From the NCBI GenBank assembly GCA_025355995.1, contig JANXYQ010000062.1:1-35951 (forward strand): a stretch of DNA of 35,951 nt, in the 5' to 3' direction. This document shows positions 182 to 28,201 of this stretch, piece after piece. The stretch's first letter is position 1, and every line of letters begins with the position of its first letter. The DNA is from Spirochaetaceae bacterium (GTDB taxonomy: Bacteria > Spirochaetota > Spirochaetia > Treponematales > Rectinemataceae). A program made the position numbers and the translations under genes. The notes below the pieces were generated by a model. It was not told where the DNA came from. It searched no databases and saw only the letters and a program-made list of their open reading frames with translations.

Positions 182-2515
182 TCACCCTTCCAGGTTCTCG
201 AGCAGGACGTCCTTCAGTATCCGAGGGGCCCGCATCCTCGCTACCCGAGCGCGGAATTCCCCAGGGCTCCCGGCGCGGAGGAGGGAGAGGCAGAGGCGGT
301 TCTTGCGGAGGTTGGAGGCCTGATAGGCGGAGAGGAGCCCGACGCAGCGTTCCGGGAGCGGAGGATTCGCGAGGAATTCGAGTCCCTCAAGCCTTACGAG
401 GATGGATTCGGTCGGCTCTAATCTCTCGATCAGGACCGAGCAGCGATCCTCGCGCTCCGCGGGTACCTCGATCTTCATCCCATTGCGCTCGACCTCGATG
501 GCCCGTGCCCTCGCTATATCCTTGAATGCGATGAGATAGTTCCTCTCGCGCGGGATGCGGGCGAGGTCGCCCTGGGCGGGCTCGATGCGGAATGACAGCG
601 CGTCTTCCTCGCCCTCCCCGCCGTCGACCGCGAAGCGAGTCGTAGCGAAGCCGCCCTCCTCGTAGCTCATGTCGAGGCCCTCGTCCTCGTAGAGCGCGAA
701 AGCGCTCCTGCCGCGGTATACCAGGATTTCCATGTCGGAGGGATTCCCGGATTCGTTGCCGGATGGAATCGCCAGCGGAATGATGGCCCCTTCGCGGGCG
801 AGGACGGGCATGCCCCGGAGGTCCCTCTGGAGGCGGAGCTTTCGTCCGCCCTCGTAGACCTGCCCCGTGAAGACGTCCGTCCATCGCCCGCGGGGGAGCC
901 AGGCCTCCACCTGGGCGAGGTTCATCCGCGGGTCGATCCTCCGCGTGATGGGGCAGACTAGGAGCTCGGAGCCGAAGAGGAACTGATTCGGGACCCGGTA
1001 CGCGTTCGCCTCCCCGGGGTAGGAGTAGTACATGGGCTCCACCAGGGCGATTCCCTCCCGGTTGACGCGGCGGTTCATCGTGTAGAGATAGGGAATGAGG
1101 CGCTGCCTGAGGCGGAGCGCCTCCTTGGCCAGGCTCTCCACGTCGAAGCGGTATTTCCAGGGCTCCTTGCCGAGGATCTCGTGATTCGAGGAATGGAGGC
1201 GCAGGATGGGGCTGAAGACGCCCAGCTGGAGCCAACGCAGGTAGAGCTCGTCGTCCCGGCGGCCGAGGTGGTGGCCTCCGATATCGTGGCTCCACCAGGT
1301 GTAGCCGATGTTGCTCGCCGTCGCGGTGAAGCGGGGCTGGAAGGCGAGGGTCCTCCAGGATATCGACGTGTCGCCCGAAAAACCGAGGGGATAGCGGTGG
1401 CTGCCGGGCCCGGAGTATCGGGAAAGGATGAGGGGCCGCCTTCCGTCCCTGCCGTTGTCCAGGTAGTGGTAGTGGTTGAGGGCCCACAGGGGATCGAGCC
1501 CCTTCATCCGGCTCCTTCTGCCCTGCTGCCAGTCTATCCACCAGAAGTCGACGCCTCCCTCCTCGTAGGGGTGATGGAGGATCTTGAAGTAGGCGTCGAT
1601 GAAGCGGCGGCTCGCGAAATCGAAGGCGATGGGCTTCCGGGCCTTAGGGTCGAGCCCCAGCTCCACGGCCATCTCATCGTAGGAATCCTCGAAGGCCCTG
1701 ACCCCGTCGGCGGGATGGAGGTTGAGGGTTATCTTTAAGTTATGCTCCCCGAGCCGGCCCAGGAAGGCTCGCCAGTCGGGGAAGAGCTCCCCGTTCCAGC
1801 TGTATCCCGTCCAGCCATTGCGCTCGCGCTGGTCCGGGAATCGCGCCTCGAGATCCACCCAATGCCAGTCCATGTCGATCCCGGCCACGCTTATGGGAAT
1901 GCCCTCGTCGCTGAATCGACGCATCAGGTCCGTGTATTCGCGGGCCGAGTATGCGTGGTACCTGCTCCACCAGTTTCCCAGGGCGAAGCGCGGGATCAGC
2001 GGAACGGCGCCGCTCAGCCTGAAGAAATCCCGGATGCATTCCCTATAGCGCGAACCGTAGGCGAAGACATAGCGGTCCCTTCCTCCGCCCTTCCTGGGCT
2101 CGAGCTCCCCTCCCTCGCCGAATAGCAGCGAGTATGAATCGTCGAGGACGGCGACGCCGGACCTGGACAGGAGTCCCGGCCCGAGGCGGACCGGGCCCGA
2201 GCTCCCGTCCAGGGTGCGGCGCGTACCCCCGAGATTGCCGCGGTTCCCGCAGGCGACGCTTCGCCCGCCGCCGCTGGGGGCAATGCGGGTCACCCTCCCG
2301 AGGACCTTGTTGAAATGGAATACCGCGGTCTCGCTGCGTATTTCGAGGCTGAGCCCGCCTTCGCGGAGTTCGTAGGCGGGGTCGCCTAAATGCCGGTGGA
2401 GGACGACCTGGCTGGGCCTGTCCTCCCAGGAGCCCCTTGGGCCTGTCTCGACGCGGAGCAGGCTCGGCGTGATGAGGCTCAGCCTGAAATTCTTTCCCTC
2501 GACCCCGGGTTCCAC
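182..2515 (-). CDS. GH31 family glycosidase (alpha-glucosidase/alpha-xylosidase-like)
   Basis: 777 aa, a typical GH31 length. It has an N-terminal beta-sandwich (about 1-150), a (beta/alpha)8 barrel (about 165-530) and C-terminal beta domains. The barrel carries the nucleophile in WWIDWQQG (D328) and a probable acid/base in GFSGDTS (D382), followed by WWSHDIGGH near 407-415. GH31 enzymes are retaining alpha-glycosidases acting on glucosides, xylosides, galactosides or sulfoquinovosides, and the sequence does not show which. No signal peptide is seen, so it is cytoplasmic and acts on imported sugar. The start is a GTG 6 bp after the GH4 stop with a weak AGGG ribosome site, so translational coupling is likely. 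It is part of the TetR-controlled minus-strand operon. Its cytoplasmic position after a sugar transporter fits intracellular oligosaccharide breakdown. Confidence 0.9.
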   Translation of the reverse strand: MEPGVEGKNFRLSLITPSLLRVETGPRGSWEDRPSQVVLHRHLGDPAYELREGGLSLEIRSETAVFHFNKVLGRVTRIAPSGGGRSVACGNRGNLGGTRRTLDGSSGPVRLGPGLLSRSGVAVLDDSYSLLFGEGGELEPRKGGGRDRYVFAYGSRYRECIRDFFRLSGAVPLIPRFALGNWWSRYHAYSAREYTDLMRRFSDEGIPISVAGIDMDWHWVDLEARFPDQRERNGWTGYSWNGELFPDWRAFLGRLGEHNLKITLNLHPADGVRAFEDSYDEMAVELGLDPKARKPIAFDFASRRFIDAYFKILHHPYEEGGVDFWWIDWQQGRRSRMKGLDPLWALNHYHYLDNGRDGRRPLILSRYSGPGSHRYPLGFSGDTSISWRTLAFQPRFTATASNIGYTWWSHDIGGHHLGRRDDELYLRWLQLGVFSPILRLHSSNHEILGKEPWKYRFDVESLAKEALRLRQRLIPYLYTMNRRVNREGIALVEPMYYSYPGEANAYRVPNQFLFGSELLVCPITRRIDPRMNLAQVEAWLPRGRWTDVFTGQVYEGGRKLRLQRDLRGMPVLAREGAIIPLAIPSGNESGNPSDMEILVYRGRSAFALYEDEGLDMSYEEGGFATTRFAVDGGEGEEDALSFRIEPAQGDLARIPRERNYLIAFKDIARARAIEVERNGMKIEVPAEREDRCSVLIERLEPTESILVRLEGLEFLANPPLPERCVGLLSAYQASNLRKNRLCLSLLRAGSPGEFRARVARMRAPRILKDVLLENLEG

Positions 2516-2521
2516 GGCGCC

Positions 2522-3859
2522 CTAACCTATAGCCAGGCTCTTGAATCGGGGCAGGTACCCTCGGTTCCTCTCGAACAGCTCGGCGACCATCGTCTTGGTC
2601 TCGGCGAGGGAAAGGACGGCCGCCGTCAAGGGGTCGTGGCAGATGGCCCTGTAGATCATGGTCGCGTCGCCGTGCAAGGCCCCCTCGATCGCCATCTCCT
2701 CGATCCCGCTGGACAATTGCGTTAAGAGGGCGCACTCGGGCGGCAGGGGGCCGACGCGCCTCGGATGGATGCCGAGCGCGTCCGCGATCGCGGGTACCTC
2801 GACGCAGGCTCCCGCGGGCAGGTTGTCTACGAGGCCTTCGTTGGGGACGTTGCCGTTGAACTCGAAGCTCTCGCCGCCCGCGAGCGCGTTGACAATGCAG
2901 GCCGCGTACTCCCGGCCGCGCTCGATGTCGATCGGCGTCTCCGCGGCGATCCACTTCTCGGCTTCGTCCCTCCAGGTCAGCTCCCGCGCCTGGTACTCCC
3001 TCAGGATATAAGCGTACTCGCCGGGGTTCCAGCCGCTCTCGTCGCCGGCCGCGCAGTACTTTTCGATGAGGTCGGGGCGCTTGCGGAACCACCAGTTGTA
3101 CTCGGAGTTGTGGCCCGAGGACTCCGTGACGTACTTGCCGAGGGCGAGGAACATCTCGTTCCTGACGAGCTCGTTCTTATAAATCTCCTCGTCCTCGAGG
3201 ATGGCCCTGCGTATGGCCGGATAGGCGTCCTCCCCGTTCACCTTGAAGTCGAGGTACCAGGCCATGTGGTTGATGCCCGCGCAGGTGTAATCCACCCTGT
3301 CCTCGCTCGTCGCGCCAGCCCACCATCCGAGCATCTGCGCCGTGCCTTGGACCGAATGGCAGAGGCCCGTGGCCGCGATGGGGCTCGAGCGCTGGATGGC
3401 GCCGCAGAGCATGGCCATGGGATTGGTGTAGTTGAGGAGGGTGGCCTTCGGGCAGAGCCTCTCCATGTCCTTGACGATCTCCATCATGGGCGGCAGGGTC
3501 CGGAGGAAGCGGAAGATGCCCGAGGGGCCGCGGGTATCGCCCACGCAGGTGTCGACGCCGTATTTCTTCGGGATCTCGATGTCGTGGCGCCATACCTCCG
3601 TCCCTCCGGCGAGGATGGTCGCGACGACGACGTCGGCGCCGTCGAGCGCGGCCCTTCGATCGAGGCTCGCGGCGGCGCGGGCCGGATAGCCGCCCATTCC
3701 TATGATCTTGTTTACCGCGGCGAGGGAAAAGTCGAGGCGCTCCGCGTCGATGTCCATCAGGGCTATCTCCGCGCCGGCGAGGAGGGGAAATGTGAGGAGG
3801 TCGCGGACGAGTTCCCGGGTAAAGCCGAAGCTGCCGGCTCCGATAAAGGCGATCTTCAT
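2522..3859 (-). CDS. GH4 family NAD-dependent glycosidase (alpha-galactosidase MelA-like)
   Basis: 445 aa, full length for GH4. These enzymes use NAD+ and Mn2+ to cleave glycosides by a redox-elimination route. The NAD-binding GAGSFGFT is at 7-14, NYTNPMAM at 143-150, the metal-ligand cysteine in CHSVQGT (C167), and the metal-ligand histidine in [10 protein letters not shown] (H198). The CHSVQGT and GINHMA phrases match the alpha-galactosidase (MelA) and alpha-galacturonidase (LplD) branch rather than the 6-phospho-glycosidases, which fits uptake by a symporter rather than a PTS. The ATG at 3859 has a strong GAGGAG site that overlaps the end of the transporter gene. The family is secure; the exact substrate is inferred. 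Confidence 0.88.
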
Positions 3860-3871
3860 CTCAGCTCCTCC

Positions 3872-5263
3872 TCATTTGTATCCGTGCTCCTTGAGGGAGG
3901 CCCGCAGCTTCCTCTCGTCGTAGAAGACGCGCAGCATCACGAACGAGAGCAGCATGCAGCAGGCGCTGACGATTGCGACCAGCCTAACGCCCGCCGGATG
4001 GGCGGCGCTCTTTCCGAGGAGGAGGAGGGAGGGCGCGATGAGGCCCGGGAAGCCGCCGGGGATGGCGGTGATGAGGCCCGAGGCCGCGCCGAAGGTCGCC
4101 TCGTTGGGGTCGCCCGTGCGGACGCAGTCCTCGCGGATGATTTCGTAGTTGATCGCCCCGGGGATGATGCCCGTGATGCCGTTGGGGATGGCCGCGACCG
4201 CGACGATGAGCCAGGCAAGGACGCTTTTGGGGATGGGTATCTTGTCCGAGAACGCGAAGGCCAGCATGATGACGACCATCATGGCGAGGGCGAAGCTGAA
4301 GAGGGTCTTCTTCCCGATCCACTTCGAGGCCAAGTTCACCAGGGGATAGAGGACGAGGCTGATGCCGACCATGGTGGCGCCGAAGACCAGCATCATGGAG
4401 TCCGAGAGCCCGAAGAGGACGGTGACGAAGTAGACGAGGCCTATCTGGAAGAGGCCGTCGCCCCAGAAATATACCTGCTGGGTCAGGACGAAGAGGACGA
4501 AGATCCGGTTCGTGAAGGCCTTCTTGAGGGCGGGCAGCAGTTTTACGCTCGAGGACCTGCCCGAGCCGTAGCGCTTCTCGTCGACGACGAGGACCTGCAG
4601 GGAGGAGAGCAGGGCCGAGACGGCTATCATGCCGCCGACCGTGAGCCTGAAGGCGTCGACGGCGCTCATGCCCGACTGCATCAGCGAATCCTTCACGACG
4701 AAGACGGCCTGGGAGCCGATGATATAGCCCATCAGCCAGCCTATCGACCCGTAGGTGCTGAAGCGCATGATGATCCTGCTCGTCACGCCCAGCTCGGGAA
4801 CGAGGGCGCTCGATACGTTGTAGAAGCATCTGAAGACATTGAGGAGGACGACGATGCCGAGGAGGTAGGCCGCGTTGAGCGGACTCACTCCATCCACGGG
4901 CGGCGCGAAGACCAGGTAGGACAGGACGGCGATCGGGACGAAGGACACGAGCATGAAGCTGCGCCTCCGCCCGAGGCTCGACTTGCTGCGATCGCTCCAG
5001 GAGGCGACCAGGGGGCCGAGGAAGACCGTGAGGAGGCTCCCGACATAGCCGATGAGCCCGATGAAGGTGAGGCCTAGGAAGGTGGTGGAGCTCAGATAGA
5101 CGGGGAAGGCGGCCTGGCTAGTCTCCGGTGGTACGTAAAAATATGTTATCAGGCCCGTGAGCGAGCCGATCACCGTCGTCCCGATGCTCCCGAGCGAGTA
5201 CAGGATGATGCGCCAGGTTGGGAAGGCTTCCTTTCCCGGGGCGAGGGCCTGAGGGCTTTCCAT
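3872..5263 (-). CDS. GPH-family (MelB-like) sugar:cation symporter
   Basis: 463 aa inner-membrane carrier of the major facilitator superfamily with about 12 hydrophobic segments. The cytoplasmic loop between helices 2 and 3 has the typical motif WSDRSKSSLGRRRSF (about 90-104), as in melibiose and xyloside carriers of the glycoside-pentoside-hexuronide family. It probably imports the oligosaccharide or glycoside that the neighbouring GH38, GH4, GH31 and GH2 enzymes degrade. The ATG at 5263 lies 8 bp after the stop of the 120-aa gene with a modest AAGG ribosome site, so it is co-transcribed and probably coupled. The coupling ion and sugar cannot be read from sequence. Confidence 0.88.
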   Translation of the reverse strand: MESPQALAPGKEAFPTWRIILYSLGSIGTTVIGSLTGLITYFYVPPETSQAAFPVYLSSTTFLGLTFIGLIGYVGSLLTVFLGPLVASWSDRSKSSLGRRRSFMLVSFVPIAVLSYLVFAPPVDGVSPLNAAYLLGIVVLLNVFRCFYNVSSALVPELGVTSRIIMRFSTYGSIGWLMGYIIGSQAVFVVKDSLMQSGMSAVDAFRLTVGGMIAVSALLSSLQVLVVDEKRYGSGRSSSVKLLPALKKAFTNRIFVLFVLTQQVYFWGDGLFQIGLVYFVTVLFGLSDSMMLVFGATMVGISLVLYPLVNLASKWIGKKTLFSFALAMMVVIMLAFAFSDKIPIPKSVLAWLIVAVAAIPNGITGIIPGAINYEIIREDCVRTGDPNEATFGAASGLITAIPGGFPGLIAPSLLLLGKSAAHPAGVRLVAIVSACCMLLSFVMLRVFYDERKLRASLKEHGYK

Positions 5264-18551: not shown

Positions 18552-20324
18552 TCAGTCGGTCCTCCTGGCGTAGGTCGTATGCAGGAGCTCGTGGGAGAGG
18601 TGCCCCAGGGGCTCGCCCAGGAATTCCGCGTACAGGGCCTTCACGCTCGGGTTCTCGTGGGACCTGCGCAGGCCCAGCCTCCTGTCCTCCGCGTACATCG
18701 CGGCGTTGCGGGCGAGGCGCTTCGCCTGGTCGACCCGCACGGGCTGCCCTCCTCCGCCGACGCAGCCGCCGGGACAGGTCATCACCTCGATGAAGTGATA
18801 GGGGCTCGTGCCCGCCGCGATCTCGTCGAGGAGGACGCGGGCGTTCTTGAGCGTATGCGCGACCGCCACGCGGACCTTCGTGCCGGCGAGGTCCACCTCG
18901 GCGCTCTTGATGCCCACGAGGCCACGCACAGCCTCGAAATCGAGGGTGGGCAGGGGGGATCCGGTGACGATCTCGTAGACCGTCCGCAGGGCGGCTTCCA
19001 TGACTCCGCCCGTGGTGCCGAAGATGGTCGCGGCGCCCGTCGAGGCCCCGAGCGGATCGTCGAATTCCTCCTCCGGCAGCCTGGCGATGTCTATCCCCGC
19101 CCTGGTGATCATCCGCGCGAGCTCTCGCGTGGTCAGCGCCCAGTCGACGTCGTAATATGCGGCGGTATCGGGCGATGCCCCAGCTTTTGCGCTCCAGTAT
19201 TCCCAGGCGCCGCGCATCTCGGGGCGCTTGGCCTCGTGCTTCTTGGCGGTGCAGGGCATGATCGAGGCAAGGCGCATGGCCGCCGGGTCGAGGCCCGCCT
19301 TCTCGGCGTAGTAGGTCTTGGCCAGCGCGCCGAACATCTGCTGCGGCGACTTGCAGGTGGAGAGGTGGGGCAGGAGGGAGGGGTAGAAGTACTCGATGAA
19401 GTTGATCCAGCCCGGGGAGCAGCTCGTTATCATCGGCAGCTTCCCGCCCTTGGTCAGGCGCTGGATGAGCTCGCTGCCCTCCTCCATTATCGTGAGGTCG
19501 GCGGTGAATTGGGTGTCGAACACCTTGTCGAAGCCGATCCGCCGCAGGGCCGCGACCATCTTGCCCGTAACCAGGCTCCCCGGCTCCATGCCCAGGGCCT
19601 CCCCGAGCGAGGCCCTGATCGCGGGCGCGGTTTGGACGACGACGGTCCCGCCCGGCTTCGCGAGCTCGCGCCAGAGCTCCTCGGTGTCGTCGCGCTCGGT
19701 GATAGCGCCGGTCGGGCACACGACCGAGCATTGCCCGCATTGGACGCAGGGACTCGCCGCCAGGCCCCGGTCCATGAAGGTCGCGACGCGGGTCCTGATG
19801 CCCCGTCCCGCGAGGCTTATGGCCGATACGCCCTGGATCTCGGAGCATACCGCCACGCAGCGGCCGCAGAGTATGCACTTGTCGTTGTCCCGCACGAGGC
19901 CGTCGGTCGAGACGTCGAGCTTGGGGGCAGCGCGGGTCCGCGGGAAGCGGACCTGCCTGATGCCGAGCGTGAGCGCCGCGTCCTGGAGCTCGCAGCTGCC
20001 CGATCGCGCGCAGGTGAGGCAGTCGGCCGGATGGTTGGCGAGGAGGAGCTCCACCGCGTTGCGGCGGGCCCGCATGACTCGCGGACTCGAGGTCGCGACC
20101 TTCATTCCCTCGCCGACCGAGCCGACGCAGGCGCGGACCAGGGACTTGGCGCCCTCGACCTCCACGACGCAGAGGCCGCAGGACGCGTTGGACGAAACAT
20201 CCTTGAGATGGCAGAGGGTCGGGACCTTGGCTCCCGCCGCCGCGCAGGCCTCGAGAAGGCTCGAGCCCGCCTCGACGAGGGCCGACGCGCCATCCACCGT
20301 GATAGAGACCATCTTGCCGCTCAT
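18552..20324 (-). CDS. hydA: [FeFe]-hydrogenase catalytic subunit HydA (multimeric NAD-linked type)
   Basis: 590 aa. It makes or oxidises H2 at the H-cluster. The N-terminal [2Fe-2S] ligands are C38, C49, C52 and C66. A His-ligated [4Fe-4S] site is H98, C102, C105, C111. Two more [4Fe-4S] clusters use C150/153/156/160 and C193/196/199/203. The H-domain has L1 TSCSPGW (C302), L2 MPCTAKKHE (C357) and L3 EVMTCPGGCVGGGGQP (C517, C521). L1 has Ser where the classic motif TSCCPxW has the second Cys. This modular form belongs to the HydABC bifurcating or NAD(P)-linked enzymes. The ATG at 20324 overlaps the hydB stop (ATGA) and has a GGAGG site. Maturation genes hydEFG are not in the window. Confidence 0.95.
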   Translation of the reverse strand: MSGKMVSITVDGASALVEAGSSLLEACAAAGAKVPTLCHLKDVSSNASCGLCVVEVEGAKSLVRACVGSVGEGMKVATSSPRVMRARRNAVELLLANHPADCLTCARSGSCELQDAALTLGIRQVRFPRTRAAPKLDVSTDGLVRDNDKCILCGRCVAVCSEIQGVSAISLAGRGIRTRVATFMDRGLAASPCVQCGQCSVVCPTGAITERDDTEELWRELAKPGGTVVVQTAPAIRASLGEALGMEPGSLVTGKMVAALRRIGFDKVFDTQFTADLTIMEEGSELIQRLTKGGKLPMITSCSPGWINFIEYFYPSLLPHLSTCKSPQQMFGALAKTYYAEKAGLDPAAMRLASIMPCTAKKHEAKRPEMRGAWEYWSAKAGASPDTAAYYDVDWALTTRELARMITRAGIDIARLPEEEFDDPLGASTGAATIFGTTGGVMEAALRTVYEIVTGSPLPTLDFEAVRGLVGIKSAEVDLAGTKVRVAVAHTLKNARVLLDEIAAGTSPYHFIEVMTCPGGCVGGGGQPVRVDQAKRLARNAAMYAEDRRLGLRRSHENPSVKALYAEFLGEPLGHLSHELLHTTYARRTD

Positions 20325-23300
20325 GATTTCCTCCCCGTCCGGGCGGGTTCCTTACTCGCCGCGTCGCCCCTCGCCCCGAGGGGGGGACGCGCGTGCTCCC
20401 GGACGTCGCAGCGCAGGCAGCGCTCCGCCTCGTAGCGGGCCTGCTCGCCCGTGAAGCCCTGGGATATCTCCACGAAATTGCCCCGCCTCTCCGCGGGCGG
20501 GAGCTGCCGCGCGCGGTTCATCTTGGCCTTCGCCGGCGCGAGGGGAACCTCCATCGCGTACTCGAATTTACGGAACAGGCCCTCGAAGCGCGCCTCGGCG
20601 GCGGCGGGCACGAGGGCCTCGTCGATCGCGGCGGCCGCGACCTTGGCCTGGCCCATCGCCTCGGCGGCGGTGGCCGGGCCGGTGACGGCGTCGCCGGCGG
20701 CGTAGAATCTCGGGTTGGCGGTCCTGAAGCTGAAAGGGTCCGCGCCTACGCGGCCGTCCTTGCCCACCGCGGCCCCGACGGACTCGACGCCGGAGGGATC
20801 GACCCGCTCGCCCACGGCGATGACGAGGGTATCGCAGGGGATCTCGTAGCTCTCGCCCGTCGGCATGGGGCTGGGCCTGCCGCTCGCGTCGACGGTTCCG
20901 GCCTTCATGCGCATGACCTCGAGGGCGCGGACCTCCCCCGACTCCCCGGCCAGGGCCGCGACCGGCTGCGCCATGCAGACGAGGGCCACTCCCTCCTCGA
21001 GGGCGCCTTCCAGCTCCTCGGCGTTGGCGGGCATGTCGCCCCGCGCGCGGCGGTAGACGACGGTCACTCTGGCGCCCGAGCGCAGGGCGGAGCGGGCGAC
21101 GTCGATCGCCGAGTTGCCGCCTCCCACGACGACGACCTCCGAGCCTATGGCCGCCTTCTTCCCGGCATTGATGCCCTCGAGCACGCCGTAGCCGGGAACC
21201 ACTCCCTTCAGATCCTCTCCCGGAATCCCGAGGCGCAGGTCCTGGAGGGCTCCCACGCAGACCAGGACGGCGTCGCTCATCTCTCCCAGGCGCTCCCAGG
21301 AGATGTCGCGGCCGACGCGCGTGTTGAACACGAAGCGCACGCCCAGCTTGCGTATGAGGCCGACCTCCTTGCGCAGGACCTCCTTGGGCAGCCTGTAGGC
21401 CGGGATGCCCCAGCGCGGGATGCCGCCGGCCTCCTCGCGCTCGTCGTAGACGGCCACGTCGTGGCCGAGCCGCGCCAGGTAGAAGGCCGCCGTGAGGCCC
21501 GCGGGCCCCGCGCCGACGATCGACACCTTCTTGCCGGTAGGCGGCAGCTTCTCCTTGATCAGCTTGTTGTAGACCGCGCGCTCGCGGCCCATCTTGTACA
21601 TCGTGTCGGCGAGGTAGCGGTGTATCTCGCCCTGGGACACCGGCTCGTCGAGCTGGTCCCGTCTGCAGCGCATGCGGCAGTGGAAGTGGCAGATGCGGCC
21701 CACGGTTCCCGGCAGCGGGTTCTCCCGCAGGGTGAGCTCGAAGGCCTCCTCGATGCGGTTCTCCTTCAGGAGCTGCAGGTAGCCGGGGATGTTCATGTGC
21801 ATCGGGCAGGAGTTCTCGCAGAGCGCGAGGTAGAGGTTCTCGCAGACACCCGCCTCGCAGCGCCGCTCGCGGATGTGCCGCTCGTACTCGTCGCGGAAGT
21901 ACTTCAGCGTGGTGAGCACCGGGTTTCCCGAGCCTTGGCCCAGGGCGCAGAGCGCCGAGTCCTTCACCGACATCGCGAGCTCCTCGAGTAGCTCGAGATC
22001 GCTTTCCTTCGCCTCGCCCCGCGAGACGCTCTCGATTATGCGGAGCATCTGGTTGGTGCCCTCGCGGCAGGCGGTGCACTTTCCGCAGGACTCGCCCGAG
22101 GTGAAGCCCACGAAGTAGCGGGCGACGTCGACCATGCAGTTGTCCTGGTCCATCGCCACCATGCCGCCCGAGCCCATGATGGCCCCGAGCTTCGCCAGCT
22201 CCTCGTAGTCGATCCTCGTCTTGAAGAGGCTCGCCGGGATGCAGCCGCCGGAGGGCCCGCCGGACTGGATCGCCTTGATCCGCTTGCGCGGTCCCGCGCC
22301 CTCGCCCATCCCGTAGACCATCGCGTCGAGGGGAGTGCCGAGCGGAAGCTCGACGAGGCCGGTGTTGCGGACCTTGCCGACGAGGGAGAAGACCTTCGTG
22401 CCCGAGCTCCGCTCGGTGCCGAAGCCGGCGTACCAGTCGCCGCCGCGTGCGACGATGACGGGGACGTTGCACCAGGTCTCGACGTTGTTGATGTTCGTGG
22501 GCGCGCCCAGGTACCCGCGCTGGGCGGGGAAGGGCGGCCTGGGCATGGGCCTGCCGGCCTTGCCCTCGGCGCTCGCGATCAGGGCCGTCTCCTCGCCGCA
22601 GACGAAGGCACCCGCGCCCATGATCACCTCGATGTCGAAGGAGAGGCGGCTTCCGAGGATGTCGCTCCCCAGTAGGCCCGCGTTCCGGGCGTCGTCGATG
22701 GCTTTGCGCAAGCGCTGGATCGCGAGGGGATACTCGGCGCGCACGTAGACCATGCCGCGCGAGGCTCCCATGGCATAGGCCCCTATGACCATGCCCTCTA
22801 CGAGCATGTGGGGGTCGGACTCGATCTCGTTGCGGTTCATATAGGCGCCGGGGTCGCCCTCATCGGCGTTGCAGATCACTATCTTGCCCTCTCCCGGAGC
22901 GGCAGCCATGATCTCCCACTTCTTGTACGTGGGGAAGCCGGCGCCGCCGCGGCCACGCAGCTTGGACTTGCGCAGCTCCTCGATCACCGACTCGCTCTTC
23001 ATCGAGGAGAGCGCCTTGATGAGGCCGGAATAGCCGCCCGCGCCGAGGTACTCCTCGATGCTCTCGGGGTCGATGAGGCCGGCGTCCCGCAAGACGATCT
23101 TCTCCTGCCCCTTGAAGAAGGGCAGCTCGTTCCAGGAGGGGAGGAAGGCAAAGTCCGAGCCGAAGTCAATAGTGGACGTGCGGAAATCCCAGGCCTCCAT
23201 CTTCGCCGTCGCCGTCTTGGCGAGCCGGCCGAAAGCCTCGTCGTCGGCGACGCCGGCGACCAGCTTTGCGGCCCTCGAGGCCTTGGCCTCGGTGAAGAGG

Positions 23301-23557
23301 AGGACCGGCTTGCCGGGCCTCCACGCCATCACTAGGGGCTCGGCCGCGCAGAAGCCGAAGCACCCGACGCGCCGTACCGCCGGGGCGCCGGCCCCCGGCT
23401 TGGCCGCGGCCGAGAGCGCCTCGAATAGCTCGTCGGCGCCGTTCCCGATGCCGCAGGTGCCCATCCCCACCGACAGGAAGGGGCGATCGGGCTTGATCCT
23501 CTCCAGGCCGGCCTTTCGGAGCGCGCCGAGATCCGGCGTCGCGTTGGCCGGGCTCAT
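20321..23557 (-). CDS. HydB/NuoF-like diaphorase fused to a GltD/NfnB-like NADPH flavoprotein
   Basis: 1078 aa from the ATG at 23557, in an ATGA overlap with the hydC stop. Upstream in-frame sequence to 24160 is only the shadow of hydC. Residues 1-100 are a thioredoxin-like [2Fe-2S] domain (C35, C66, C70). About 145-560 is the NuoF core: FMN/NADH motif GRGGAGFP (202-209), NADEGDPGAY (230-239), CGEET (320-324) and a [4Fe-4S] site C491/494/497/C537. Instead of the usual C-terminal 2[4Fe-4S] ferredoxin domain of HydB, the chain continues as a GltD-type module: cluster cysteines C567, C572, C580, C584, C623, C627 and C631, FAD motif GAGPAGL (682-688), nucleotide motif GGGNSA (812-817) with VVYRR (833-837) typical of NADPH, and a terminal RCLRCD. 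This suggests both NAD(H) and NADP(H) sites in the hydrogenase complex. Confidence 0.92.
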   Translation of the reverse strand: MSPANATPDLGALRKAGLERIKPDRPFLSVGMGTCGIGNGADELFEALSAAAKPGAGAPAVRRVGCFGFCAAEPLVMAWRPGKPVLLFTEAKASRAAKLVAGVADDEAFGRLAKTATAKMEAWDFRTSTIDFGSDFAFLPSWNELPFFKGQEKIVLRDAGLIDPESIEEYLGAGGYSGLIKALSSMKSESVIEELRKSKLRGRGGAGFPTYKKWEIMAAAPGEGKIVICNADEGDPGAYMNRNEIESDPHMLVEGMVIGAYAMGASRGMVYVRAEYPLAIQRLRKAIDDARNAGLLGSDILGSRLSFDIEVIMGAGAFVCGEETALIASAEGKAGRPMPRPPFPAQRGYLGAPTNINNVETWCNVPVIVARGGDWYAGFGTERSSGTKVFSLVGKVRNTGLVELPLGTPLDAMVYGMGEGAGPRKRIKAIQSGGPSGGCIPASLFKTRIDYEELAKLGAIMGSGGMVAMDQDNCMVDVARYFVGFTSGESCGKCTACREGTNQMLRIIESVSRGEAKESDLELLEELAMSVKDSALCALGQGSGNPVLTTLKYFRDEYERHIRERRCEAGVCENLYLALCENSCPMHMNIPGYLQLLKENRIEEAFELTLRENPLPGTVGRICHFHCRMRCRRDQLDEPVSQGEIHRYLADTMYKMGRERAVYNKLIKEKLPPTGKKVSIVGAGPAGLTAAFYLARLGHDVAVYDEREEAGGIPRWGIPAYRLPKEVLRKEVGLIRKLGVRFVFNTRVGRDISWERLGEMSDAVLVCVGALQDLRLGIPGEDLKGVVPGYGVLEGINAGKKAAIGSEVVVVGGGNSAIDVARSALRSGARVTVVYRRARGDMPANAEELEGALEEGVALVCMAQPVAALAGESGEVRALEVMRMKAGTVDASGRPSPMPTGESYEIPCDTLVIAVGERVDPSGVESVGAAVGKDGRVGADPFSFRTANPRFYAAGDAVTGPATAAEAMGQAKVAAAAIDEALVPAAAEARFEGLFRKFEYAMEVPLAPAKAKMNRARQLPPAERRGNFVEISQGFTGEQARYEAERCLRCDVREHARPPLGARGDAASKEPARTGRKS

Positions 23558-24090
23558 TTGGATTTCGGCGCCTCCGGCGCCGGTACCTTGCGAAGCTTCT
23601 CGATCGCCGCGACCAGCTTGCCGACGGTCATCCTCGAATGGATGGTGCCGTCCACCTGGACTACCGGCGCGAGCGCGCACTGGCCGAAGCAGGCGACCGT
23701 CCGGATCGAGGCGAAGCCGTCGGGAGTGGTGACCGAGTTCGACTCGTCCTCGCGGAAGCCTTCGATCCCCAGGCGCGCGAGGGCTGTCTCGAGGAGCTCG
23801 AGGGAGCCCCTCGTGTGGCAGGCGGTTCCCCTGCAGACGACCAAGGAATGCAGGCCCTGGGGTTCGAGGTTGAAGAAGGAGTAGAAGGTCGCAACGGAGT
23901 AGACTTGGGAGAGGGGCAGGGCCATGCCCTCGGCGATTCGCCGGAGGGTCGGCTCGCTTAAGTAGCGGAACTTCTCGAGTTCCTGGGCATTCTCGAGGAG
24001 TCCGAGTAGGGCTCCTGGCTTTCCCTTGTGACGTTCGATGAGCTCGTCGAGCGTCGGGGCCTTGCGCTGGGTCGTAGTGGTCGATGGCAT
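23554..24090 (-). CDS. hydC: HydC/NuoE-like [2Fe-2S] subunit
   Basis: 178 aa thioredoxin-fold protein of the 24-kDa NuoE family. The cluster ligands are C86, C91, C134 and C138 in VCRGTACHTRG and ACFGQCALAP. A helical N-terminal part holds the usual GALLGLLENAQ and SQVYSVATFYSFF phrases. In trimeric hydrogenases it passes electrons next to the HydB flavin. It is the first gene of the hyd operon. The ATG at 24090 has an AAGGAGG site, and a TTGACA promoter lies about 60-90 bp upstream. Its stop overlaps the start of the hydB fusion gene by 4 bases. Confidence 0.95.
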   Translation of the reverse strand: MPSTTTTQRKAPTLDELIERHKGKPGALLGLLENAQELEKFRYLSEPTLRRIAEGMALPLSQVYSVATFYSFFNLEPQGLHSLVVCRGTACHTRGSLELLETALARLGIEGFREDESNSVTTPDGFASIRTVACFGQCALAPVVQVDGTIHSRMTVGKLVAAIEKLRKVPAPEAPKSK

Positions 24091-24180: not shown

Positions 24181-24274
24181 GAAAAATTTATCGATACAAT
24201 AAGTATTTTGGGGAGTATGAAAAGAAGTTCTGGTTTTAGAAACTATATAGGTAAAAAAGTATTTATAAAATATT
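24181..24274. other. A/T-rich non-coding island
   Basis: This stretch is far richer in A and T than the rest of the window, with runs such as GAAAAATTT, a TATCGATA palindrome, two AAGTATTT copies and AAAAAAG. It lies between the hyd promoter and the terminator-like hairpin of the upstream operon. Short frames inside it look random. It may be an UP element, bent DNA or a protein-binding site. Confidence 0.5.
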
Positions 24275-24319
24275 CATTTCTCGCCCGCGTGGAAGCAAGA
24301 GCCTCGCGAGCGAGAAATG
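24275..24319 (-). terminator. Terminator-like hairpin after the RsbW-like operon
   Basis: CATTTCTCGC (24275-24284) and GCGAGAAATG (24310-24319) are perfect inverted arms. After one mismatch the stem extends by four more G-C pairs (24286-24289 with 24305-24308). For minus-strand transcripts the hairpin begins about 41 bases after the 67-aa gene and is followed by an A/U-rich tail with a T6 run about 20 bases on. The tail is not immediate, so efficiency is uncertain. Confidence 0.5.
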
Positions 24320-24360
24320 ACCCATTCCATCGACCGGCGACGGCGCGTCCGCGACGGGCT

Positions 24361-24564
24361 TCAGCGAAGGTTCTCGAAGCTCGACCCGACAGTCTCCTCG
24401 CGGGAGATCGAGGATCGGACTAGGGAGGCGTAGATGGGGGTGCCCAGGACTTCGGCCACGCTCGATGCGGCCTTGATGCGCTCGAGCCTATGTTCCGCGA
24501 TGCTTTCCCTGCGCTGCCTCTCCTCGGCCTGGGTCATACGCTCTTCGCCATTGGGCTTGTACAT
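24361..24564 (-). CDS. Small charged protein coupled to the RsbW-like gene, unknown function
   Basis: 67 aa. The ATG at 24564 lies inside the 3' end of the RsbW-like gene and has a strong AGGGAGG site at good spacing, which makes it a believable real gene despite the 31-bp overlap. Residues 8-35 are rich in E, R, Q and A and look like an amphipathic or coiled-coil helix. The second half is more hydrophobic (VAEVLGTPIYASLV) and then serine-rich. There is no cysteine, signal peptide or membrane segment. I recognise no family. Because it is co-translated with a predicted anti-sigma-type ATPase, it could be a binding partner or antagonist; that is inference from position. Confidence 0.65.
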   Translation of the reverse strand: MYKPNGEERMTQAEERQRRESIAEHRLERIKAASSVAEVLGTPIYASLVRSSISREETVGSSFENLR

Positions 24565-25040
24565 GATTCCTCCCTGCTGCTTTTATCTCCCGCGAAGCCG
24601 AACCGGCCGCGGTACGATTCCGGGCGCCGTCCGCCCGGATTCACCATTGCCCTGACGCGGCTGCCGCCGCGCTCGAAAGTAAGTTCATCGGACAGCTCGT
24701 TGACGAGCACCAGGCCGCGATTGACCAGGGAGTGAGGGTCCTCGGGCAGTCCGAGCACGAGGGACTCGTAATCGAAGCCCTCGCCCTCGTCGTCGACCTG
24801 GACCTCGTACGTCACTCCACTACGCGCGACACGAATCAGGGCCATTCGCGAGTGGTTCGATCCGTTGCCGTGGACAATCGCGTTCATGAGCAGTTCGCGA
24901 ACGACGAGCAGAAGCCCATCCGTGTCCCAAACTCCTTGCCGCCTCGCGAACTGAGCCACCCGTTCCAGTATTACCGGGACTCGCTCAGTTTCGGAGACGA
25001 CACTGAGGTAAAGGGAATCTTCGGACTCACTCTCATCCAT
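24534..25040 (-). CDS. RsbW-like ATP-binding protein (HATPase_c_2, anti-sigma/serine kinase type)
   Basis: 168 aa. It is a stand-alone GHKL ATPase domain: N-box VRELLMNAIVHGN (47-59, N53) and G1 box DDEGEGFD (83-90), with an NRGLVLVNEL segment (107-116) as the lid. This is the RsbW/SpoIIAB class, which binds and inhibits a sigma factor or phosphorylates an STAS-domain antagonist. No sigma factor or STAS protein is in the window. The ATG at 25040 lies about 11 bases after the -12 element of a near-consensus sigma-54 promoter. AGAGG is only one base from the ATG, so translation may be leaderless. It lies downstream of the NtrB/NtrC-like pair on the same strand. Confidence 0.82.
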   Translation of the reverse strand: MDESESEDSLYLSVVSETERVPVILERVAQFARRQGVWDTDGLLLVVRELLMNAIVHGNGSNHSRMALIRVARSGVTYEVQVDDEGEGFDYESLVLGLPEDPHSLVNRGLVLVNELSDELTFERGGSRVRAMVNPGGRRPESYRGRFGFAGDKSSREESCTSPMAKSV

Positions 25041-25050
25041 GCCTCTATAT

Positions 25051-25068
25051 AAGCAAGAAGCCTGCCAA
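25051..25068 (-). promoter_or_regulatory. Sigma-54 (-24/-12) promoter of the RsbW-like gene
   Basis: On the minus strand the sequence reads TTGGCAGG-CTTC-TTGCTT. The invariant GG and GC are exactly 10 bases apart, and the match to TGGCACG-N4-TTGCW fails only at the sixth base (G for C). The start of transcription would be close to 25041. The NtrC-class activator is encoded directly upstream, and two palindromes sit 84 and 124 bp upstream. Confidence 0.78.
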
Positions 25069-25141
25069 AAAAAAAGAAATCGTTATGTTGCAGTGGGGTA
25101 AGTAATTACTTTTCTTGATCGTGCCAACTAACTTTACGGTA

Positions 25142-25157
25142 TTCAACCTAAGTTGAA
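25142..25157. promoter_or_regulatory. Upstream activator site 1 (palindrome)
   Basis: TTCAAC-CTAA-GTTGAA has 6-bp perfect arms. It shares the core CAAC-N4-GTTG with the second site; the two centres are exactly 40 bp apart. Its distance from the sigma-54 -24 element, about 84 bp, is usual for an enhancer-binding protein. Confidence 0.65.
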
Positions 25158-25183
25158 AGGGCTGGCATTTCTGGTTGCGGATT

Positions 25184-25195
25184 CAACTTAAGTTG
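25184..25195. promoter_or_regulatory. Upstream activator site 2 (perfect palindrome)
   Basis: CAACTTAAGTTG is a perfect 12-bp palindrome preceded by TT, as in site 1. It overlaps the last codons and the TAA stop of the NtrC-like gene, so the coding end and the control site share bases. It lies about 124 bp upstream of the sigma-54 -24 element. Confidence 0.65.
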
Positions 25196-26606
25196 CGTCG
25201 TTCATCTTGCGGGATTTGAGCCGCTTGCTGACCGCCTGGGGCGAGACTCCGAGGAGCCTGGCGGCGACGCTCTGGCTTCCTCCCGCCCTTTTCAAGGCCT
25301 CGTCGAACAGGAGCTCGGTCAGCTCGCTCGCCGAGGGCAGGGGGTTGGGAAACACGAGGGCGGGGCCTGGAGACTGGCCGGAGGCGGGATTCTTCCCTCC
25401 GGAGGCGGCGTCTCCTATCGCTTCGATGAAGGTCGAGAGCGGCAGGGAGCCCGAGCGTTCGGCGTTTACCGCCTCGAAGACCATCGCCTGCAGCTCGCGG
25501 ACGTTGCCCGGGAAGCCGTAGGCCCTGAGCAGGGGGTAGAGCTCGCTCGGGGCGGTCGGGGGCCTCTTGCCCAGCTCGGCGGCCGCGGCCGCGATGAAGC
25601 GCTCCACGAGCAGGGGAAGGTCGCCGAGGCGCTCGCGCAGCGGGGGAATGCGGATCCTATGGCCTCGCAGGCGGTAGTAGAGGTCCCGGCGGAAGTGCGA
25701 GGCGCCTACGACGGCGTCGAGGTCGCGGTTGGTCGCGACGATGAATCGGGCCCGTCCGCGGCGCATGAGGTCGGAGCCGAGGGGGAAGTACTCGCCAGTT
25801 TCGATGACCCGCAGGAGCTTGAGCTGGGAGGCCGGGCTCAGGTCCCCGATCTCGTCGAGGAAGAGCGTCCCGTCCCTCGCCTTGTCTATGAGCCCCTCGA
25901 GGTCCGAGTCGGCGCTCGTGTAGGCGCCCTTGCGGTGGCCGAAGAGTAGGTCGGCGAAGAGGGCGTCGTCGAGGCCCGCGGCGTTGACCGCGATGAGCTC
26001 TCCCTTCCGGCCGGAGAGGTCGTGGACCGCCCTCGAGAAGAGCTCCTTGCCGACCCCCGTCTCGCCGGTGACCAGGACCGGGTGGGAGCTCTTCGCGATG
26101 GCCTCGGCGTAGGCCATGACCTGGAGCATCCGCGGGTCGGCGGTCGCGATGGACGCGAAGGCGGGGTTCCTCGGCGCCTGGCCCGAGAGGAGCCGCTCCT
26201 TGATCGCCTCGTTCTCGCGCAGGAGTTCCTGGTGCTCGATGATCCGTCGGGCGGTGGCGACGAGGCGCTCGCGCTCGACCGGCTTGACGAGATAGTCCGC
26301 GGCGCCCGCGCGCATGCACTCGACCGCCTTCTCGACGTCGCGGTTGCCGGTGATCACGACGACCGAGGCGCCGGGCTGCTCCTCGCGGATGCGCGCGAGC
26401 AGCTCCTCCCCCGACATCCCCGGCATGGTGAGGTCGAGGAGGACGAGGCCGACGTCGTGCGTGGCGAGCTGCTCCATGGCCTCTATGGGCTCGGCGGCCG
26501 TCGCGACGTTCGCGATGCCCGCGGATTTCAGGGCGGCGACGACGCTCTCCCGCACGTAGTCCTCGTCGTCGACGATGAGGACGCAGAAGCCCGGGGCCGC
26601 GCTCAC
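25188..26606 (-). CDS. NtrC-family sigma-54-dependent response regulator
   Basis: 472 aa. It starts at the GTG at 26606, which overlaps the kinase stop (GTGA) and has a GAGGG site. The receiver domain (about 5-120) has the phospho-acceptor D58 in LVLLDLTMPG and K108. The AAA+ domain (about 150-385) has Walker A GETGVGKE (181-188), Walker B TLFLDEIG (247-254) and a GAFTGA loop written GAYTSA (227-232). A Fis-type helix-turn-helix ends the protein (AGGSQSVAARLLGVSPQAVSKRLKSRK). It should contact sigma-54 polymerase from a distance. Its likely target is the sigma-54 promoter at 25051-25068 just downstream, through the two CAAC-N4-GTTG palindromes. Confidence 0.93.
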   Translation of the reverse strand: MSAAPGFCVLIVDDEDYVRESVVAALKSAGIANVATAAEPIEAMEQLATHDVGLVLLDLTMPGMSGEELLARIREEQPGASVVVITGNRDVEKAVECMRAGAADYLVKPVERERLVATARRIIEHQELLRENEAIKERLLSGQAPRNPAFASIATADPRMLQVMAYAEAIAKSSHPVLVTGETGVGKELFSRAVHDLSGRKGELIAVNAAGLDDALFADLLFGHRKGAYTSADSDLEGLIDKARDGTLFLDEIGDLSPASQLKLLRVIETGEYFPLGSDLMRRGRARFIVATNRDLDAVVGASHFRRDLYYRLRGHRIRIPPLRERLGDLPLLVERFIAAAAAELGKRPPTAPSELYPLLRAYGFPGNVRELQAMVFEAVNAERSGSLPLSTFIEAIGDAASGGKNPASGQSPGPALVFPNPLPSASELTELLFDEALKRAGGSQSVAARLLGVSPQAVSKRLKSRKMNDAT

Positions 26607-28201
26607 GGGACCCTCGCGCCGGTAGGCGCGGCGCCAGTAGGCGCGGCGCCGGCGAGCCCGGCGCGCGAGCTCGGGGCGCGCGTGTTCAGCGTCACGGAGG
26701 CGATCGTGCCCGCGCCGGGCTCCGAGGAATAGTCCAGGCGGCCGCCGTACTCCGCTACTATGGACTCGGAGATGGATACACCGAGGCCGACGCCGCCGAT
26801 ATCGTGCTTGGTGGTGAAGAAGGGATCCTTGATCCGCTCGAGGAGCTCGCTCGTCATCCCGCGCCCGCCGTCGGCGACGACGAGGCGGACTATCCCCGCC
26901 TCGAAGTCGTAGGAGGTCGATATCCGGATGGACTGTTCGGGATCGGTCAGGGCCTGGCAGGCGTTCTGGATGAGGTTGACCGTCACCTGCTCGAGGCGCT
27001 GGAAATGCGCGTGGACCGGCGGCATGCCCTCCTCCAGGTCGATGACGATGTGGCGGGTCGCCTTCTTTATGTAGTTCGAGAGCAGGGTGAGGGCGGCCTT
27101 GACGACGAGGTTGATCGAGACCTCTTCGGTCTCGGGCCGCGACTCGCCGCGGGCGTAGTCCTTGAGGCCGCGCACGATGCTGTCGATGTCCCTGGACGCG
27201 GCGGCGATGCCCGAGAGCAGCCGGGGCGCCTCCGCCCTGGCTTCCTGCCATTCCATCCCTCCGATCAGGTCGCCTTCCCTGCCCTCGAGGACGCGGTCGA
27301 GCAGGGGCGTGACGGAGGCCCAGGCCTCGGCGAGGATGTCGGCGTTGAGCGCTATCGAATGGTTCGGGTTGTTGATCTCGTGGGCGACCCCCGCGACGAG
27401 CTCGCCGAGGGACGCGAGCTTCTCGGTCTGGATGAGCTTGGCCCGCTGGGAGCGCTCCCTCTCCTCGGCCAGGACCCTGTCCGTGACGTCGAGGAAGGTG
27501 GCCATTATCATGTCGCCCGAGGCGGCGCCGACTTCCTTGCCGAAGGCCTCGAAATAGCTGCCCTCGCCCCCGCCCATGCGGAAGGGGCCGGCCCGGCTCG
27601 AGTCGCCGCGGAGCAGGGGTCCGAGCACGGGCGCCGCCTCCGGGGGAAGGGCGCGGAGCCATTCGTCCAGCATCATCCCCTGCGAGAGCCGGGGCGGGAC
27701 GCCGAAGAGGGAGCCCGCGGTGGCGTTGCAATAGACGATCGAGTCCTCGCGGGCGATGACGATGCCGAGCGGGGACTCCTCGGCGAGCGCGCTGAATTTC
27801 TCCGCGTTCTCGCGCCGGGCTCGCTCCGCGCGGCGCCTCGCGGTGAGGTCCACCGCGGTCCGGAGGATGGCGCCGCGGCCGTCGGGGAGCCGCCCGAGCG
27901 ACGCGGAGCTGAAGTCCCAGGTCAGGACGCTGCCGTCCCTCGTGCGGACCAGCCTCTCGCCCTCGCTCGACAGGGAGAGCTCCGGGGCCCCGAAGGCCCG
28001 GCGCTCCCACTCGGCGAGGGTGGGTATCGAGTCCAGCGAGTAGCCCGTAAGCCGGGCCCACTCGCGGTTGACGAGATCGACCCTGCCCTCGTCGTCGTGG
28101 ATCATGATGGGATAGGGCAGGAGGTCCAGTATCGCGCGGAGGCGCTCCTCGCTCGCAACTAGGCTCGCGCGCGGCTGTTCCTCGGCCCCCTCGTGATGCA
28201 T
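26603..28201 (-). CDS. Soluble two-PAS sensor histidine kinase (NtrB-like)
   Basis: 532 aa with no membrane segment, so it senses a cytoplasmic signal. There are two PAS domains (about 18-125 and 133-245), then a HisKA dimerisation helix with the phospho-acceptor H274 in GVAHEINNPNHS, and an HATPase_c domain (N-box NLIQNACQAL, G1 ADGGRGM, FFTTK, G2 GGVGLGVS). The C-terminus ends in a low-complexity APTGA repeat. It phosphorylates the NtrC-like regulator, whose GTG overlaps its stop. The ATG at 28201 has no Shine-Dalgarno sequence. An extended -10 element (TGATACAAT) ends 6 bases upstream, which points to a leaderless mRNA. It is divergent from the nadD-like gene. Confidence 0.92.
   Translation of the reverse strand: MHHEGAEEQPRASLVASEERLRAILDLLPYPIMIHDDEGRVDLVNREWARLTGYSLDSIPTLAEWERRAFGAPELSLSSEGERLVRTRDGSVLTWDFSSASLGRLPDGRGAILRTAVDLTARRRAERARRENAEKFSALAEESPLGIVIAREDSIVYCNATAGSLFGVPPRLSQGMMLDEWLRALPPEAAPVLGPLLRGDSSRAGPFRMGGGEGSYFEAFGKEVGAASGDMIMATFLDVTDRVLAEERERSQRAKLIQTEKLASLGELVAGVAHEINNPNHSIALNADILAEAWASVTPLLDRVLEGREGDLIGGMEWQEARAEAPRLLSGIAAASRDIDSIVRGLKDYARGESRPETEEVSINLVVKAALTLLSNYIKKATRHIVIDLEEGMPPVHAHFQRLEQVTVNLIQNACQALTDPEQSIRISTSYDFEAGIVRLVVADGGRGMTSELLERIKDPFFTTKHDIGGVGLGVSISESIVAEYGGRLDYSSEPGAGTIASVTLNTRAPSSRAGLAGAAPTGAAPTGARVP
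26616..26656. repeat. 15-bp tandem repeat in the kinase 3' end
   Basis: GCGCCGGTAGGCGCG and GCGCCAGTAGGCGCG follow one another (26616-26645), then a partial third copy. In the kinase frame it encodes repeated Ala-Pro-Thr-Gly-Ala. The unit is a multiple of three, so changes in copy number would keep the frame. Confidence 0.7.

Follow-up and report, generated by a model that had tools for sequence, protein, structure and literature searches.

The nearest precedents for the locus described here are the SypG/SypE/SypA proteins of Vibrio fischeri (PMC4517449) and the LvrB/LvrC proteins of Leptospira (PMC13269768). In the SypF/SypG pathway of V. fischeri, a sigma-54-dependent regulator acts from a defined enhancer and turns on the syp locus, including its partner-switch proteins (PMC4517449). 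SypA is a STAS protein, and SypE, which carries an RsbW-like kinase domain, illustrates that an RsbW fold does not imply a sigma-factor target (PMC12826045). In the spirochaete two-component system LvrB/LvrC (PMC13269768; 9qih), the last component is an RsbW-fold protein. LvrC itself contains a Rec domain, with phosphorylation as the switch, and its sigma factor is still unknown in Leptospira (PMC13269768).

The window (the 35,951-nucleotide stretch of Spirochaetaceae bacterium contig JANXYQ010000062.1 that was analyzed) comes from a free-living spirochaete, and every element of its locus, from a sensor kinase gene to a gene for a 67-aa protein, is read from the minus strand. As in V. fischeri, which belongs to a different phylum, a sigma-54 response regulator would act from an enhancer on a partner-switch gene; however, the Syp output is a STAS protein and a polysaccharide locus, whereas the output here consists of a single-domain RsbW-like protein and the 67-aa protein, with no STAS gene. 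As in Leptospira, a two-component system ends in an RsbW-fold protein, but this one, unlike LvrC, lacks a Rec domain (none was found by Pfam in its 168 aa) and appears to be controlled at transcription via sigma-54. Bacillus RsbW and SpoIIAB are similar in fold (Z 14-15) and in N-box and G1 residues, but the window's protein has no adjoining RsbV/SpoIIAA or sigma gene and scores below the curated cut-offs.

Regulator, operator and promoter

The kinase gene (28201-26603, minus strand) encodes a 532-aa PAS-PAS-HisKA-HATPase_c protein (Pfam PAS_8, HisKA and HATPase_c). It is followed by a sigma-54 activator response regulator gene with a GTG start (26606-25188, minus strand), whose product combines Response_reg (3e-30), Sigma54_activat (6e-51) and a Fis-type HTH, HTH_8 (4.3e-6), in one protein, as indicated by Pfam and an alignment of seven orthologues. 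The original prediction treated the pair as NtrB/NtrC, and this assignment fails for NtrC proper: the regulator scores 279.1 bits against a cut-off of 558.6 for the NR(I) equivalog TIGR01818. Dependence on sigma-54 is consistent with the presence of rpoN in the organism's own genome (PF04552, E 4.5e-55), the absence of which had been named as evidence against the prediction. The sigma-54 contact loop (GAFTGA type) reads GAYTSA in the window's activator and G(A/S)(Y/F)TG(A/S) in six orthologues. At the position of this serine, the same-genus relative carries the usual glycine (GAYTGA), and a literature search for the term GAFTSA found no paper containing it.

Two putative enhancer palindromes of the form CAAC-N4-GTTG lie downstream of the kinase. 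The distal one, TTCAACTTAAGTTGCG on the plus strand (25182-25197), encloses the last codons and the stop codon of the activator gene, and the proximal one is TTCAACCTAAGTTGAA on the plus strand (25142-25157). Their centers are 123.5 and 83.5 bp, respectively, upstream of the -24 GG of a predicted, perfect sigma-54 -24/-12 promoter, TTGGCAGGCTTCTTGCTT (25068-25051, minus strand), which is kept in the same-genus relative and across three families. Three structural claims of the original prediction thus hold at the base level: a 4-base overlap of kinase stop and activator start (GTGA; ATGA in the same-genus relative), a GG-to-GC spacing of 10, and palindrome centers 40 bp apart. A CGCAACC half-site between the palindromes (25173-25179, minus strand), shared with the same-genus relative, is a possible third contact.

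Conservation in relatives, also proposed earlier as a check, was found in the same genus and in another family. In Spirochaetaceae bacterium UBA1306 (L007, genome G025), a metagenome-assembled genome (MAG) of the same genus with the locus on a 4.7-kb contig, the kinase, activator, both palindromes, sigma-54 element (TTGGCAAGGTCCTTGCTT), RsbW-like gene and a 66-aa gene are kept in the same order, and the palindromes are 41 bp apart, with centers 82.5 and 123.5 bp from the GG. Synonymous divergence between the two loci is about one change per site (dS 0.84 to 1.24), and the motifs that are kept are therefore under selection. In G030, from another family, the regulator, palindromes, sigma-54 element and RsbW-like gene are kept.

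An orthologous activator occurs in seven of 394 genomes of the order, the window's own included (G000, G025, G001, G030, G009, G011 and G040). The six others are 53 to 86% identical to the window's activator, and all remaining activators are at most 48% identical. The recognition helix (S/T)PQA(V/I)SKR is kept in all seven orthologues, and so is a downstream sigma-54 element, although it is weaker in G030 (ATGGCTTGATTCTTGCT). An exact palindrome lies close downstream in five of the seven, with one-mismatch copies in G009 and G011; the palindrome-to-sigma-54 arrangement is found at the orthologous locus in G000, G025, G001 and G030. Sister activators of the order (helix SRTALNRRLK; L051-L065 among them) are likewise followed by a sigma-54 element, 205 to 290 bp downstream. 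Unlike the window's activator, they lack CAAC-N4-GTTG in all 23 loci examined, although 12 of the 23 have the sigma-54 element; the palindrome therefore goes with this activator and is not a general layout. Several sister loci have a TGTGCA...TGCACA-type site just past the stop codon, and in at least seven the next gene or target, read by eye, encodes a Hly-III-like membrane protein.

The operator is defined well enough to find regulon members by sequence-pattern searches of a genome. A CheA of one subfamily is present in G040, beside the activator, and in G011, unlinked to the activator; both copies lie behind a palindrome and a sigma-54 element, and the unlinked G011 gene, with CAACCTTGGTTG and TTGGCACGAAGCCTGCT upstream, was picked out by the operator. 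On pattern evidence, the pair is an independent test of the operator. None of the other five orthologue genomes yields a match to this CheA at the threshold applied to those two, and as far as tested it therefore lies outside the window's regulon.

Counting from the -12 C, transcription is predicted to start at 25041, 1 nt before the ATG of the RsbW-like gene. The predicted distance from start to start codon is 1 nt in the window, G030 and G011, 2 nt in G025 and 4 nt in G040, and none of these five short-leader starts has a usable Shine-Dalgarno sequence; G001 and G009, where methyl-accepting chemotaxis protein (MCP) genes are driven, have an ordinary leader with a GGAGG-type site. The promoter geometry thus predicts a leader of 1 to 2 nt, i.e., a leaderless mRNA, for the RsbW-like genes. 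The start of the RsbW-like protein itself is supported by synonymous changes within a fully identical N terminus, MDESESEDSLYL, between the window and its same-genus relative, and the region upstream of the gene showed no sigma-70-like site. At three other perfect sigma-54 cores in the organism's own genome (contigs C103, C132 and C133), the likely gene starts are 40 to 74 nt past the -12 C; with such ordinary leaders, the leaderless layout is therefore not general for sigma-54 here.

The RsbW-like protein and its possible partners

The RsbW/SpoIIAB-like GHKL ATPase (168 aa; 25040-24534, minus strand) matches Pfam HATPase_c_2 (E 8.4e-14) and belongs to a family of small proteins that bind and let go of other regulators. 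Its fold model (mean pLDDT 76; weak at residues 95-106 and from 143 on) matches the SpoIIAB/RsbW-type Bergerat fold, with Z 13 to 15.5 against SpoIIAB, RsbW, UsfX and LvrC (9qih among the best matches), in contrast to Z < 8 against histidine kinases; the top match has a Foldseek value of 3.6e-7 and Z 15.5 over 125 residues (rmsd 2.6). The N-box (E49xxxN53) and G1 box (DEGxGF) are kept, and E49, N53, D84, G86 and G88 are invariant among the RsbW-like proteins of four genomes. Scores against curated anti-sigma models are below cut-off (TIGR01925, 21.5 bits against 135; NF041045, 33.3 against 210), and no PDB chain was matched by sequence alone. RsbW profile matches outside the order (L008-L033; 25 to 41% identical) were set aside, and partial matches on G001 contig C248 (37%) and G002 contig C24 (33%) were left out.

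The gene for the charged 67-aa protein (24564-24361, minus strand) overlaps the RsbW-like gene and has its own GGGAGG Shine-Dalgarno sequence. It is conserved in the same-genus relative under weaker constraint, as judged from sequence divergence: identity to the 66-aa homologue is 48% with a dN/dS of 0.43, versus 72% and 0.14 for the RsbW-like gene. The 67-aa protein has no family match in Pfam or NCBIfam.

The wiring from regulator through enhancer and sigma-54 to the RsbW-like gene is strongly supported by these comparisons. The original prediction went further, proposing that the regulator switches on an anti-sigma-type protein and thereby a second sigma circuit. Its first step agrees with the presence of rpoN and the conserved operator, promoter and gene order, but the link to a sigma factor does not have the same standing: neither a STAS nor a sigma gene is part of the unit, which consists of the RsbW-like and 67-aa genes, and in other genomes the orthologous regulators control genes for MCPs, CheA and kinases. 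With no such partner encoded alongside, the second sigma circuit is plausible but unproved. Similarly, "self-contained" describes the promoter logic of the locus well but does not hold beyond it.

An alternative with the same promoter logic is that the RsbW-like protein does not serve as an anti-sigma factor; like SypE and SiaB, it would be a switch kinase whose partner is a STAS, chemosensory or second-messenger protein. SiaB is a further case in which an RsbW-type fold does not necessarily act on a sigma factor, and the model also matches SiaB (6kko) with Z 12.6. The orthologous outputs point the same way. G000 and G025 have an RsbW-like gene as the output, and so does G030, of a second family, where a hemerythrin gene comes first; the adjacent output is an MCP in G001 and G009 and a receiver-kinase, CheA and MCP in G040, so that control of RsbW is not constant. 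In G011, the regulator drives a histidine kinase, B12-binding (corrinoid) and URO-D proteins and another kinase, with an RsbW-like gene farther along. The organism's own genome holds 10 STAS matches elsewhere. Nevertheless, genuine anti-sigma factors (SpoIIAB, RsbW and UsfX) are the closest in fold, and sigma targets exist because the genome contains 14 matches to sigma-70 region 2. On this balance, a partner other than a sigma factor is a serious contender, if somewhat doubtful.

Two other loci of the same genome contain related genes. A SpoIIE-like phosphatase, STAS (RsbV) and HATPase (RsbW) set is located on contig C39. On contig C95 (L143), a small sigma-70-like gene comes after a large gene that has the same orientation and encodes a C-terminal HATPase_c_2 domain (1578-2126 and 2183-4675).

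Boundaries of the unit and chance

The RsbW-like and 67-aa genes are probably the only genes behind the sigma-54 promoter. A strong hairpin with an AT-rich tail (within 24255-24330, minus strand; -35.8 kcal/mol, z -7.75) lies 3' of the 67-aa gene and is the probable transcription end. An [FeFe]-hydrogenase operon, absent from the original prediction, follows on the same strand from 24090; HndA-like, NuoF-like and [FeFe]-hydrogenase genes occupy 18552-24090 (minus strand).

This proximity raises the possibility that the RsbW-like gene serves control of the adjoining electron-bifurcating hydrogenase operon, being either co-transcribed with it or dedicated to it, and in G011 the hydrogenase genes lie behind another RsbW-like gene, with the neighbors adk and nadD shared. 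However, the hairpin and a separate sigma-70-like TTGACA-16-GATACT site intervene, and both TTGACAACTCC and ATACTG are found again ahead of the G011 hydrogenase genes (L034). Moreover, the position holds a HAD-type gene in the same-genus relative and a ParA-like gene in G030. With a hairpin and a promoter of its own in between, the hydrogenase operon looks separate from the RsbW-like unit, and a role in hydrogenase control is improbable. A literature search found no paper combining RsbW, NtrC, hydrogenase and anti-sigma.

In dinucleotide shuffles of the 160-nt upstream region, the two palindromes appeared in 0 of 20,000 and the sigma-54 core in 14 of 20,000. Searching the organism's own 4.5-Mb genome and the same-genus genome for the tandem palindrome gave a single occurrence in each, in both cases at this locus, and no match to its reversed control. 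It is scarcely credible that the promoter or enhancers match by chance, with the RsbW-like gene expressed by another route, even with single motifs this short and a variant loop in the activator, because the shuffles and the single occurrence at the locus in two genomes, together with conservation across families, exclude chance.

Proposed cascade and significance

The reading that accounts best for the locus, and that is considered probable, is that a two-component system carries its own sigma-54 output, followed by RsbW-type partner switching. The PAS kinase would phosphorylate the activator, which would bind the pair of CAAC-N4-GTTG palindromes located where its own gene ends and remodel sigma-54 polymerase at the -24/-12 element. 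The resulting mRNA, bicistronic and near-leaderless, would encode an RsbW-type switch kinase and the 67-aa protein. The RsbW-like protein would most likely act by partner switching, phosphorylating a STAS protein and/or holding a sigma factor or other signaling protein encoded elsewhere.

A bolder version, tentative and rather unlikely as a whole, is a spirochaete cascade in which the two-component sigma-54 activator acts through a near-leaderless mRNA on an orphan anti-sigma kinase. One sigma factor would then set the level of free antagonist for another, and the regulator would keep its operator while the output gene is exchanged between lineages.

A leaderless mRNA would be unusual as the output of sigma-54 control. 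In Leptospira, a high number of leaderless mRNAs have been mapped (PMC5243855), and the predicted leaderless sigma-54 mRNA, kept across three families, fits this picture. In spirochaetes, the partners of RsbW-type proteins are largely unknown, and this locus offers a clean, testable case in which sigma-54 control leads into an RsbW-type switch.
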